From the NCBI GenBank assembly GCA_021787565.1, contig JAJYLT010000009.1, positions 1 to 64,000 on the forward strand: 64,000 nt of DNA, in the 5' to 3' direction. Each line of letters opens with the position of its first letter. Position 1 is the stretch's first letter. Shown in pieces: positions 5,814 to 41,073 of this stretch. Position numbers and translations under genes: made by a program. The notes beneath the pieces are model-generated. The model was not told the DNA's origin and searched no databases. It saw only the letters and a program-made list of their open reading frames with translations. This DNA is from Acidobacteriota bacterium (lineage in GTDB: Bacteria > Acidobacteriota > UBA4820 > DSQY01).

Positions 5814-6119
5814 TTATTCCTTAATGAGCCCGGCGATGGCCGACTTGTTGAAGGTGAGCTTCACGTTCTCGGCCACGCGGAGGACCACCGTGTCCTGATC
5901 CACGGCCGTGACGCTGCCCCGGATTCCGCCGATGGTCACCACCTGGTCCCCCGTCTTGAGGGCATCCAGCATCACCCGGTGGGATTTCGCCCGCTTCTGC
6001 TGTGGGCGGATGAGAAGGAAGTAAAAGACCACGATGATGAGGATGATCGGGATGAAGGCGGCCAGCGGGTTTTGGCTGCCCCCCCCGGCCGGCTGCGCCA
6101 TCAAGAGAAACCAGGGCAT
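5814..6119 (-). CDS. yajC: Preprotein translocase subunit YajC
   Basis: MPWFLLMAQPAGGG...FIPIILIIVVFYFLLIRPQQKRAKSHRVMLDALKTGDQVVTIGGI; start at CAT 6117-6119, adjacent to secDF. Confidence 0.93.
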   Translation of the reverse strand: MPWFLLMAQPAGGGSQNPLAAFIPIILIIVVFYFLLIRPQQKRAKSHRVMLDALKTGDQVVTIGGIRGSVTAVDQDTVVLRVAENVKLTFNKSAIAGLIKE

Positions 6120-6574
6120 TGCACTCCTCCTTCTGGGAACCTCCACCCTACCGCGCCCCGCCTGGGAGGTGCGGTGCCTCCGGCCCGCCTGCCGTGGTTC
6201 CCCTCCGCCCCCGTTACCCCGGGGGTTCTGGACCGCAGGGGGGTCGCAGAAGAAGACCTCCGGAGAGCCCGGAAGTCCCAACGCCGCATTATGCCCTGGA
6301 AGGGCTTATGAGTCAACCTATTATGCCCGAGCAGGGTGGGTTGTGCTCGGAACGCGGGGCCGGCGGCCCCGCGCGTTGACAGCCCGCCTCCGGGGGTTCA
6401 CCATGGGGATTCAGGCCGCCGGCCGCGCCGCGCCGGAGGCCGGTAATGCGGGTGTGGAAACTCGGTCCGAGGAGAGGAGGGGCCGTCCTCCCGCGTTCCC
6501 ATCGCCCCTGTTCCCGTTTTCCCCGGGACGGCGCCGCCGTCCCTCGAACCCCCGAGACCCTGTGGAGAGTGGAT

Positions 6575-34744: not shown

Positions 34745-34847
34745 GGGCGGTGAAACCTCCGGGGCGATTGTAGCAACGGGAAGGCCAAAGGCGAAGAGCG
34801 ACGGGGAAGGGGCCTCACCGCGGAGAAAGACCGGATTCTAAAAACTC

Positions 34848-34935
34848 TGTAGGAGCGCTCTCCAGAGCGCGATACCGTGATGAGGTGAGTAGGTGATGAG
34901 GTGATGAGGGCGCGGGGAGGTCTTCGAAGGCGAGG
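34848..34935 (-). repeat. Composite intergenic repeat copy: REP-like hairpin + (GTGATGAG)n + TTCGAA-block
   Basis: TGTAGGAGCGCTCTCCAGAGCGCGAT, octamers 34877-34909, then GCGCGGGGAGGTCTTCGAAGGCGAGGCATTCGG. Confidence 0.8.
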
Positions 34936-35323: not shown

Positions 35324-35378
35324 GCCCAAGCGCGGCCGCTTCGGACTGGCCGACCTGATAGGCGGAGGTGTTGGGCCC
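35324..35378. repeat. Direct repeat flanking cassette segment, left copy (possible degenerate attC)
   Basis: GCCCAAGCGCGGCCGCTTCGGACTGGCCGACCTGATAGGCGGAGGTGTTGGGC. Confidence 0.6.
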
Positions 35379-35449
35379 AACGTGGTGGGCCTAACAAAGA
35401 CGATGCCCACCGCCACGCGGCTTCTCCGTCTGTTCTCTGCACCCGCTCG

Positions 35450-36743: not shown

Positions 36744-36848
36744 GCCCAACGCTTGCGTTCAGCAGCCGGGCAACCGCTTACAAGCCTGCACGGCGTCCAG
36801 CGGACCAGCATCCGCCAGGACCCGGTCCGCTGCAACGGCCTGTTAGAC
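36744..36848 (-). mobile_element. Integron attC recombination site (no integrase in window)
   Basis: Minus strand: R'' GTCTAAC, L'' CGTTGCAGC, L' GCTGAACG (pairs with L'' leaving one extrahelical G), spacer CAAGC, R' GTTGGGC; stop codon of the upstream ORF lies inside R''. Confidence 0.8.
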
Positions 36849-37970
36849 CTGCGTTTTGAATTTCCGTCGGACGGCTTCCATTTGCGGCCTCAGTTGCTCC
36901 ATAATTCGCTGCTTCGCTTCTGGAGTGAGTTCAATATCCCGATAGTTGGCTCTCGGCTCCATGTGCTTAGTCCAAACCTGGTTGACAAAGGAATCGGACC
37001 AGTCCGGTGGATATGGCCCAAGACTCTTGTGGAACATAGAGCGCTCTTTATCTGATTTGGAGGACCAGAAATCTACGAGTTTTTTCAGTTCGGCTTTAAG
37101 ATTCGCCTTTTCAATATAGTCTTGCTCGGGGGTGAGCAGAAGAGGAGCCAAGCTTGTGTGCACCTTGTCACCGGATGAGAACACCTTGCAGAATGGGAGG
37201 TAGAGGAGATACTCAAGATCAACCCGATTTGTTGGCCGGTGGCCGATGAGTCTGTTGGCAAGGGCAACGTAAAACAGCAGAAATACGGCTAGGCAATAGG
37301 ATGCATAGGGAGCGTAATCACACAAGCGTGGCATATGTTGGCTTAGCCAGTAGTGGTAAACTCGATTCGACCACTCTCGGGATACCGCTGCTTGGGCCAA
37401 GATAAATCGAAGATTCTCAAACTGACTTTCTGGGTTCGTGGCGATAGATTGGCTTAGCTTGAGAGCCTGATCGAGAGTTTCTGCTTTGGGGACGTTACTC
37501 TTTGTTGATAGCCAAGACTCAAGGTTGATGCTTCTGGTGGAACCACGCCACCGCCCTGATAATACCTGTTCTGCTTCGTAAAATTGTCCTTTAGACCATC
37601 GGCGCAGTGCTTCTCTTTCAGGCTCCTCCTCGAAGAAGACGCCTTCATGGCCACTTGAATCACGAATGGCCCGGCCATCTATCCTAATCGGACGACCGTC
37701 CATGACCACTTGGTTGCCCAGAAGGTTCGAAACTAACAGGATTCTATAGTGGGCGGTAAAGCACGAATCTATGGGGTGAATCTTCCTTGAGTAGTCTGCA
37801 ACCGTCTTCTTAGAGTGGTCGATGTCTTCTGAATATTTATGCAGATCGCCGAGAATCTCGATAAACAGCACTGGTGCGTAAACGAGCATGAAGTATTGGT
37901 GCGCAGAGTAGACCTCTGCGTGTGAGAGAGAATGCAAAACCGATTTGTCTAGAAGAAGCTGCGGGCCCAT
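36843..37970 (-). CDS. Integron-cassette hypothetical protein, possibly PIN-like
   Basis: 375 aa; LLLDKSVLHSLSHAEVYSAHQYFMLVYAPVLFIEILGDL and DLEYLLYLPFCKVFSSGDKVH; visibly lower GC than flanks. Confidence 0.7.
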   Translation of the reverse strand: MGPQLLLDKSVLHSLSHAEVYSAHQYFMLVYAPVLFIEILGDLHKYSEDIDHSKKTVADYSRKIHPIDSCFTAHYRILLVSNLLGNQVVMDGRPIRIDGRAIRDSSGHEGVFFEEEPEREALRRWSKGQFYEAEQVLSGRWRGSTRSINLESWLSTKSNVPKAETLDQALKLSQSIATNPESQFENLRFILAQAAVSREWSNRVYHYWLSQHMPRLCDYAPYASYCLAVFLLFYVALANRLIGHRPTNRVDLEYLLYLPFCKVFSSGDKVHTSLAPLLLTPEQDYIEKANLKAELKKLVDFWSSKSDKERSMFHKSLGPYPPDWSDSFVNQVWTKHMEPRANYRDIELTPEAKQRIMEQLRPQMEAVRRKFKTQV

Positions 37971-38104
37971 GTTATCTCAATCAGGTCTGAGGCACATCAA
38001 CCGGACTTGTTATGCGGACTCCATTCCGCCTATCAAGGAAACTCAGCGGCCTATCATGGTTCACCGTTGCAATTGCAGTCATGGCTGACCCCGAGAAAAT
38101 CCTA

Positions 38105-38158
38105 CCACAAGCGCGTCTGCTTCTGAGAGGCCGACGTGATAGGGGGCGGTGTTAGGGT
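38105..38158. repeat. Direct repeat flanking cassette segment, right copy
   Basis: CACAAGCGCGTCTGCTTCTGAGAGGCCGACGTGATAGGGGGCGGTGTTAGGG. Confidence 0.6.
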
Positions 38159-38275
38159 GCCATGGTGCGCGTGAGGCTCTTGAGCGCCTCACGACCTGGA
38201 GGCCGCTCCCCCAGCGGCAGGCCTGAGGGGCGACGGCGCCGGCCATGGCGAGCATGGGCCGCTACGGCTGGACGC

Positions 38276-38340
38276 TTCTCGCCTTCGAAGGCCTCCCCCC
38301 GCCCTCCTCACCTCATCACCTCATCACCTCATCACCTCCT
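38276..38340 (+). repeat. Composite intergenic repeat copy: TTCGAA block + (CTCATCAC)n
   Basis: CTTCTCGCCTTCGAAGGCCTCCCCCCGCC + CTCCTCAC CTCATCAC x3. Confidence 0.85.
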
Positions 38341-39025
38341 CGCCCCTTTCGCCCTCCGTCTTCGTGGTCTTCTATGAGGCCTTTCTCTTTTTCCATCGAG
38401 AGGCCCCCGACCGTCGGGTTCGGACCGGGGGGCGGGGGCTGCTCTTGGTCCTTCTCTGGATCCTTCTCTTGATCTCCTGATCTCCCTGTGGATCTATTGT
38501 GCCGCTGCCGGCCCCACGGCCGCGACGGGAAAGGGTGACACACGTCTCCGCAGAGGACGGCGCGGAATTCGGAAACGGGTCGCGCACGCGGTATCGGACC
38601 GTTTCCGCCTCTGGAACCGCCTCCTGCATGCGTGTTTCTGCCGTTTCGGCGATGGTCCGCGCCCAAGGCGCGGCTTGAAGCCCCCCACGTCCCCTCTCCA
38701 CGAGACAGCCCCGGCGAACGCGCTTCGGTGATGGCATCAGTATACGGCCAGCGCGATGGTGAACGGAAGGGGGAGGCTGACAAAGGCGGGGAGAGCCAGG
38801 CGAGGGGAGGGGCGAGGGCTCCGCACGGGACGGGGGCCATCGCGAGCTTGCCAAGCCGCCCCTGCGCTATAATGCCCCACGGAGGGATTCCCGAAATGGC
38901 CATGGAGACGAACGGGCGGAGCAAGCTCTATGTCGGCGACGACCGGGGTATCCCGCGGGAGCATGCAGCGGATGGGAGCGTGGACCTGGGCGCCGCGGGC
39001 GCCGCTTCGGCCCCGGGAGGCGCGG

Positions 39026-39766
39026 ATGCCTGATCTCTCCATGGCCCTGCGCGATCTCGACGCCCGCGTGGGAGAGGCGGTGCGGCACTTCTGGAGGACC
39101 CGCGAGAGGCAGGCCCGCAGGCAGGGCGCTACGGGGCAGAAGGATCAGGGCGCCCGCAGCGCGGTCACGGGGGGCGCGCAGATGGACGGCTTCATCGGGC
39201 TCCTGACCGGGGTGATCCTCGCCACGGGCCTGGAGGCGCGGCACATCTACTACCAAAGGGCCCTCGAGCTGCCGGGCTTCTTCAGGCCCACGAAGGAGTG
39301 GGACCTTCTGGTCGTGAAAGATGGCCAGCTCGTGGCGGTCATCGAGGCCAAGTCGCAGGTCGGCCCTTCCTTCGGCAACAACTTCAACAACCGCACCGAG
39401 GAGGCCATGGGGAGCGCCATGGACCTGTGGACCGCCTACCGCGAAGGCGCCTTCAACCGGACCGCCCGCCCCTGGCTGGGGTACCTCTTCCTGCTGGAGG
39501 ACTGCGCGGGCTCCCGCCGGCCCGTCTCCGTCCAGGAGCCGCACTTCCAGGTCTTCCCCGAATTCAAGGGGGCCTCCTACGCGCGGCGGTACGAACTCTT
39601 CTGTCGGAAACTCGTCAGGGAGCGCCATTACAGCGCGGCGGCTTTTCTGACCTCGGACGCGGAGAGCGGCCTGCAAGGCCGGTATGCCTGTCCCGCCGAG
39701 GATTTGACCTTCGACCTGTTTGCCCGTTCGCTGGCGGCCCAGATCGCCGGCCACGCGACGAGCTAG
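39026..39766 (+). CDS. PaeR7I (XhoI)-family type II restriction endonuclease
   Basis: GGAQMDGFIGLLTGVILATGL..IYYQRALELPGFFRPTKEWDLLVVKDGQLVAVIEAKSQVGPSFGNNFNNRTEEAMGSAMDLWTAYREGAF. Confidence 0.92.
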   Translation: MPDLSMALRDLDARVGEAVRHFWRTRERQARRQGATGQKDQGARSAVTGGAQMDGFIGLLTGVILATGLEARHIYYQRALELPGFFRPTKEWDLLVVKDGQLVAVIEAKSQVGPSFGNNFNNRTEEAMGSAMDLWTAYREGAFNRTARPWLGYLFLLEDCAGSRRPVSVQEPHFQVFPEFKGASYARRYELFCRKLVRERHYSAAAFLTSDAESGLQGRYACPAEDLTFDLFARSLAAQIAGHATS

Positions 39767-39767
39767 G

Positions 39768-40724
39768 ATGGCCGCCATGCCCGACGAGCCTCTCGATCCC
39801 TCCCGCCACCAGCTCATCCTGGGCGATTCGCGCGCCATGCCCTACCTTCCCGACGGGTCGGTCCACCTCGTGGTGACTTCGCCCCCCTACTGGACGCTGA
39901 AGCGCTACAACGAGGTGGAGGGGCAGCTCGGCCACGTGGCCGATTACGAAGAGTTTCTGGAAGCTCTGCGCCAGGTGTGGCGGGAGGTCTTCCGGGTGCT
40001 CGTGCCCGGCGGCCGGCTCGTGTGCGTTGTGGGGGACGTCTGCCTCTCCCGCCGGGCCTTCGGGCGGCACGTGGTCGTGCCCCTGCACGCCGACATCGCG
40101 GTGCTCTGCCGGAAGATCGGCTTCGACAACCTGAATCCCATCATCTGGCACAAGATCGCCAATGCCAACTACGAGGTGAGCAACGGCAGCACCTTCCTCG
40201 GCAAGCCCTACGAGCCGAACGCCATCATCAAGAACGACATCGAGTTCATCCTGATGCAGCGCAAGCCGGGGGGTTATCGCAAGCCCACCCAGGAGCAGAG
40301 GGACCTCAGCCGCATGACCAAGGAGGAGCACGCCGAGTGGTTCCAGCAGTTCTGGAACCTGACGGGCGCCTCCACCAAGCAGCACCCGGCGCCCTTCCCG
40401 TTCGAGCTGGCGCACCGGCTGGTACGGATGTTCTCCTTCCACGGCGACACGGTCCTCGACCCTTTCTGCGGCACGGGCACCACGCTCCTCGCGGCCATGA
40501 AGACGGGGCGCCGCGGCGTCGGCGTGGACGTGGACATCGACTACCTCCGCATGGCGTGGCGGCGGCTTCATCATGAGATGAGCGGCCTCTTCGACCGCGC
40601 CGACGTGGCCTTCTACCGGTCCGTTCCCGATGAGCCCCAGCACGTCGTCCGGGAAGAGTTCCCGCCCGCCTACCACGGCCGGTCCACCGAGAAGCCGAAG
40701 CGAAAGCGCGGCGCCGCCCGATAG
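39768..40724 (+). CDS. Type II DNA methyltransferase, TSPPY-first (beta-like) motif order
   Basis: LILGDSRAMPYLPDGSVHLVVTSPPYWTLKRY (motif IV) ... TVLDPFCGTGTTLLAAMKTGRRGVGVDVD (motif I). Confidence 0.92.
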   Translation: MAAMPDEPLDPSRHQLILGDSRAMPYLPDGSVHLVVTSPPYWTLKRYNEVEGQLGHVADYEEFLEALRQVWREVFRVLVPGGRLVCVVGDVCLSRRAFGRHVVVPLHADIAVLCRKIGFDNLNPIIWHKIANANYEVSNGSTFLGKPYEPNAIIKNDIEFILMQRKPGGYRKPTQEQRDLSRMTKEEHAEWFQQFWNLTGASTKQHPAPFPFELAHRLVRMFSFHGDTVLDPFCGTGTTLLAAMKTGRRGVGVDVDIDYLRMAWRRLHHEMSGLFDRADVAFYRSVPDEPQHVVREEFPPAYHGRSTEKPKRKRGAAR

Positions 40725-40778: not shown

Positions 40779-40911
40779 CTCCTCACCTCATCACCTCCTC
40801 ACGGTGTCGCTCTGTGGAGAGCGCTCCTGCGGCTGAATGCCTCGCCTTCGAAGGCCTCCCCCCGCCTTCATCACCTCATCACCTCATCACCTCATCACCT
40901 CATCACCTCCC
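40779..40911 (+). repeat. Composite intergenic repeat copy: octamers + REP-like hairpin + TTCGAA block + octamers
   Basis: (CTCCTCAC/CTCATCAC)3, GTCGCTCTGTGGAGAGCGCTCCTGC, TGAATGCCTCGCCTTCGAAGGCCTCCCCCCGCC, (CTCATCAC)4-5. Confidence 0.85.
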
Positions 40912-41073
40912 CCCCCAGCCCCCTTGCAACAAAGAGAGCCTCCGTGGTGTTATCATTGGCGCATAGCACAGGGTTGACCGGGGCCGTTGGGAGACGGTGA
41001 AGGTGGCGGTGGACGAGACGGGGCGGCTGGGCGCGGGGGTTCGCCGGCCGCGGACGGCTCCCGAGGAGGTCCC

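Follow-up and report, generated by a model that had tools for sequence, protein, structure and literature searches.

The window analysed here, a stretch of 64 kb that forms the beginning of the 101,034-bp contig C44, carries a solitary attC-like element, and it raises the question of whether this is a true attC site and, if so, how a single integron cassette came to lie there. An initial annotation had called it a bona fide attC site, CALIN-like and without an integrase. The 105-bp site occupies 36744-36848 on the minus strand and marks the 3' end of a cassette. Its boxes, read from the sequence on that strand, are R'' GTCTAAC (36842-36848), L'' CGTTGCAGC with one extrahelical base (36829-36837), L' GCTGAACG (36756-36763) and R' G^TTGGGC, with the crossover after the G (36744-36750), and they pair in the order R''-L''...L'-R' as imperfect inverted repeats of the form RYYYAAC / GTTRRRY. 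The boxes, coordinates and strand are all present in the sequence as first described.

The L''/L' helix comprises 8 bp and one extra base (CGTT-G-CAGC against GCTGAACG), and the single extrahelical G reported for it is there on the cassette strand, and so reads as C on the bottom strand, the one through which an attC site recombines. This extra base is unchanged in 10 of 10 sister attCs from the same genome, and TTGCA is likewise invariant. The pairing claimed for R'' and R' holds for five of the seven positions as Watson-Crick pairs; the other two read as G.T on the minus strand and as an A/C mismatch on the bottom strand. Imperfect R''/R' pairing is usual in an inserted attC because the R' then belongs to the flank.

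We built a covariance model from the 10 sister attCs, which were first located by pattern and scan, using the R and L stems as the structure and holding out the window site. With filters off, the model recovered the window attC at exactly 36744-36848 on the minus strand with 83.2 bits (E = 2.3e-24), and the runner-up in the 64 kb scored 12.3 bits. The structure is borne out by the training sites themselves (n = 10), in which four stem pairs are altered on both sides, the L helix is 97% paired and the whole structure is 92% paired, against 19 to 44% when the partners were slid as a control. The window attC is of the same 105-bp subtype as an array attC at C44:99418-99522, and an Rfam scan of the window gave no match at gathering thresholds. 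The site is a true attC, as the initial annotation had proposed; the covariance-model check that it suggested returned a high score and other attCs exist in the genome, the reverse on both counts of the subthreshold score and lack of further sites that it had named as grounds for abandoning the call.

The cassette around the site has the expected form. A gene for a 375-aa protein runs from 36843 to 37970 on the minus strand, and its TAA stop codon was confirmed to sit within the R'' box. The cassette body (36849-38110, minus strand, right edge approximate) has a GC content of about 49% against a background of about 65%; in the composition profile, values of 46 to 53% contrast with 62 to 72% on both flanks, and the island spans about one cassette. 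A low-GC island ending at an attC is what a cassette would show. A chance palindrome, or another repeat such as a REP-like element mimicking an attC, has almost no probability left, for while dispersed repeats of other kinds are numerous in the genome and the single-strand folding energy of the site is unremarkable (z = −1.15) and does not single it out, this reading is opposed by the held-out E value, by sister sites standing in arrays beside intI, and by a stop codon and a GC island in register with the attC.

The absence of intI is true of the 64 kb and false for the genome. About 61 kb from the window attC, on the same contig, a search of the remaining sequence found a 366-aa integron integrase (C44:97623-98723), so the genome is not integrase-less. 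This protein scores 473 bits against TIGR02249 (cut-off 265) with 313 of 315 positions covered, aligns from end to end with the Vibrio integron integrase of known structure, 2a3v (E = 3e-94), and contains the insertion specific to IntI as well as the catalytic part of the C-terminus (HTFRH, GHSD, IYTH). Between intI and the first cassette lies an attI (C44:98715-98898, GCGTTAGGT) with a G^TTRRRY crossover, complementary to the R'' ACCTAAC of the first attC; the array attCs follow this leader at 99418-99522 and 100830-100889, and intI, leader and cassettes are co-oriented over C44:97.6-101.0 kb. The genome holds what defines a complete integron, a full-length IntI with the IntI-specific domain and an attI with G^TTRRRY.

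A genome-wide covariance scan placed attCs at E < 0.01 on six contigs (C30, C34, C44, C60, C71 and C77), and at least 13 attCs are present besides that of the window. With intI on the same contig and attCs on six contigs, the window attC is an outlier of the resident integron, and there is no sign of an integrase-free genome. One intI above the family cut-off was found in the window genome (G000) and one in G008, a family member of another genus whose integrase is 75% identical to that of C44, and none genome-wide in the sister species G001; these are draft assemblies of 77 to 500 contigs, in which a second intI could be missing. The loci on C30 and C77 lie close to contig ends. The ends of C30 and C71 (L040:1-117 and L041:1-117) share the start of one cassette, MAEYGEWNRKG..., the probable cause of the assembly breaking at these places. 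On C34, a degenerate attC of 23.9 bits (C34:27222-27320; L094:3223-3321) is probably a fossil cassette site.

What several of these loci share is the leader between the intI stop codon and the first cassette, a promoter-like stretch of about 180 bp ending in G^TTAGGY. The form found beside the C44 intI, type 1, occurs in seven copies. Four are in the window genome, on C44 beside intI (L011:14698-14907), twice on C30 (L040:611-819 and 6084-6293) and on C71 (L041:3177-3384); three are in the sister species, on C168, C125 and C80 (L203, L204 and L205). The seven can be aligned along their whole extent, TGGAC and GTGCTACAA being identical in all of them, and their likeness ends at GCGTTAG, where unrelated cassettes start. 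The copies read TGGACA-17-TACAAG, a pair that a simple promoter scan did not call, and conservation suggests that the type-1 leader acts as a promoter.

Type-2 leaders were found on C80 of the sister species, twice in G004, in G007 and on C77 of the window genome. One of the G004 copies directly follows intI. The other (L207:3925-4126, on C11) lies just downstream of a decayed 72-aa piece of the intI C-terminus with a stop, and about 7 kb from an intact intI-leader unit. G008 has a leader set of its own, with five copies, one beside intI (L256) and four, 79 to 95% identical, at intI-less loci (L257, L259, L260 and L261); they retain a promoter-like TTGACT-17-TATCAT, and the intI-adjacent copy has two strong hairpins (fold z = −5.5). 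Not every member of the family shows repeated leaders, because the leaders of G002, G003 and G005 had no copies among the loci examined, except that those of G002 and G005 match each other.

A cassette inserted by IntI has half of its own R' at its 5' end, and this half is expected to complement the cassette's own R''. Among 12 leader-borne modules, a count that includes G001 C80b, 11 show perfect complementarity between the R box of the leader and the R'' of the first attC, and the twelfth is off by one. Six different sequences are involved, and 8 of one million shuffles matched this result. At the in-place attCs, none of eight R' boxes is complementary to its own R''. Since the R box of the leaders complements the first R'' and the in-place R' does not, there are strong grounds for regarding the leaders as recombined attI sites. 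The intI-less modules of G008 passed the test in three of four cases and failed it in one.

Three leaders of the window genome retain about 10 C-terminal intI codons in frame (GTVGVLGPFDRG against GARGVLSPIDRG, each ending in a stop). Given these codon scars and the decayed intI of G004, the intI-less loci probably derive from intI-attI units, either through copying of a truncated unit or through loss of intI in place.

Directly before the window cassette we find a candidate for such a leader, in a decayed state, at 37985-38142 on the minus strand. A type-2 leader profile had its top match in the whole window at this place, on the correct strand and in register, with 9.2 bits and an E value of 0.018, and one of 500 shuffles gave an equally good full-length alignment; 167 kb of control DNA held no place above 4.3 bits. 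The score is sensitive to the composition of the profile, as dropping single members moves it from 17 to about 1 bits, and four of five leave-one-out subsets give 1 to 2 bits or no match at this position. The alignment ends at CTCAGAC (37985-37991, minus strand), the candidate attI-cassette junction, which agrees at five of seven positions with the GTTAGAC expected from R''; five places in 360 bp match as well, so CTCAGAC alone is not significant. Before the cassette, BLAST and type-1 profiles showed no type-1 leader, a consensus search no promoter, and no intI remnant was seen. The upstream match is suggestive of a decayed type-2 leader, and on balance we lean slightly towards entry of the window cassette by way of a leader.

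We consider it likely that the window locus is a single cassette of a scattered integron, placed by IntI and most probably received through a type-2 leader that has since decayed. In such a system, the folded bottom strand of the attC in a circular cassette would be joined at G^TT to a double-stranded target, so that gene, attC and R' end up in the chromosome. One intI is accompanied by copies of the attI/promoter leader at other loci, with one to a few cassettes behind each; the remote leaders would be served by IntI in trans and would each act as the promoter of the first cassette behind them. The intI-less loci would probably have arisen through copying, or through loss of intI, with the leader being kept, and the window cassette would be an old single-cassette locus among them. 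Extended to Candidatus Aminicenantes, to a family of which the window genome probably belongs, the proposal is that one integrase serves several attI/promoter leaders in trans, each of them an expression and capture site, with the window locus as an old member; we put this forward tentatively, with a little less than even confidence.

The other readings differ in how the cassette came to stand alone. It may have been placed by IntI directly into a chromosomal site that is not an attI (attG), with no leader involved. There is one attC here, BLAST shows no clear leader, the R' GTTGGGC has the G^TT core, and IntI1 is known to carry out insertions of this kind (Loot et al. 2024, doi 10.1038/s41564-023-01548-y, as cited in PMC12444791 and PMC12901181). 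The G^TTAGAC that a simple insertion should leave at the 5' junction was nevertheless not found; instead, the 160 bp upstream look like a type-2 leader at the expected position and in register, and leaders accompany those outlying cassettes that were inspected in the sister species. We regard direct insertion as a serious but unlikely alternative.

Improbable, and more so than direct insertion, is that the locus is a CALIN proper, that is, an old multicassette array whose integrase was lost and whose attCs have all decayed but one. Arrays do decay, as the degraded attC at C34:27222 (23.9 bits) indicates, and decay of intI is visible in G004. In the window, by contrast, no second attC rises above chance with filters off, the R'' and L boxes of the remaining site are intact, and the GC island is only about one cassette long.

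The label CALIN-like, given to the locus at the outset, fits in one respect and fails in another. A CALIN comprises at least two attC sites (IntegronFinder 2, PMC9024848) that lie less than 4 kb apart (PMC9024848, PMC9668308). As in a CALIN, the window attC and its cassette gene have no intI nearby, the nearest being about 61 kb off on the same contig, and they could in principle use IntI in trans; unlike in a CALIN, a single attC exceeds the chance level across the 64 kb, and an intact intI shares its contig. Many sibling loci moreover retain an attI/promoter leader, which has no place in the CALIN definition. The window locus is best described as locally integrase-less in a genome with a resident integron.

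Returning to the scattered integron, several known systems resemble it in part. In Treponema chromosomal integrons, intI is transcribed toward attI, as in the common direction of intI, leader and cassettes on C44, but there is one attI per integron (PMC3607928), whereas the leader here is repeated at several intI-less loci. Xanthomonas has CALINs at secondary loci (PMC12444791), comparable to the cassettes found here at several chromosomal loci distant from intI; leader copies with attI-type junctions, as seen here, are not described in the available text of that source. Insertions at attG (Loot et al. 2024, as far as the citing papers convey it) likewise yield a solitary cassette and attC distant from intI, but an attG site is not an attI copy, and most outlying cassettes here sit behind attI-like leader copies. 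Searches of the open-licence literature gave no paper that treats Aminicenantes integrons and none in which a single integrase is paired with several attI leaders at scattered places, which does not prove novelty.

The accepted picture of an integron has a single integrase, a single attI and a single array, with expression limited to the first cassettes. Scattered leaders, if real, would depart from this rule: with one IntI feeding many leaders, many cassettes would at once be first behind a promoter. Some of the loci counted as integrase-less CALINs or stray attCs would then be parts of a working multisite system, which tools that need a nearby intI or two attCs would miss. The window attC by itself is an ordinary true positive, and the interest lies in the scattered leaders.

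The 375-aa protein has no Pfam, NCBIfam or PADLOC match, no PDB match, and no relatives among 59 related genomes, GTDB or viral contigs; the sole relative found, a distant one, comes from a plasmid fragment of Granulicella, with 35% identity across 41%. An AlphaFold model made without an alignment was unusable (pLDDT 36.7), and a PIN-like nuclease was considered from motifs picked out by eye. The sister species is syntenic with the window at 91 to 94% on both sides of the cassette region and has other genes in the interval 34.9-38.5 kb, with no clean empty site or boundary readable; because of these other genes at the same place, the region is a variable spot.

Other features of the surroundings are recorded here as separate observations. 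An XhoI-family restriction endonuclease (PF04555) and an N6/N4 methyltransferase lie at 38930-40724 on the plus strand and are absent from the syntenic spot of the sister species. Dispersed gatgaggtgatgagg tandem repeats occur in the window at 34849-34930, 38257-38359 and 40843-40924 and at many loci of the sister species, including upstream of its leaders on C168, C125 and C80. A REP-like palindromic repeat, GTAGGAGCGCTCTCCAGAGCGCGATG, is found at 34841-34872 in the window, before the leaders in L204 and L205, and elsewhere. Finally, a 51-bp hairpin-like stretch at 35372-35422, which adjoins the end of a 363-aa ORF and includes GTTAGGC and GTTGGGC, is 84% kept in the sister species though the surrounding interval has been replaced.
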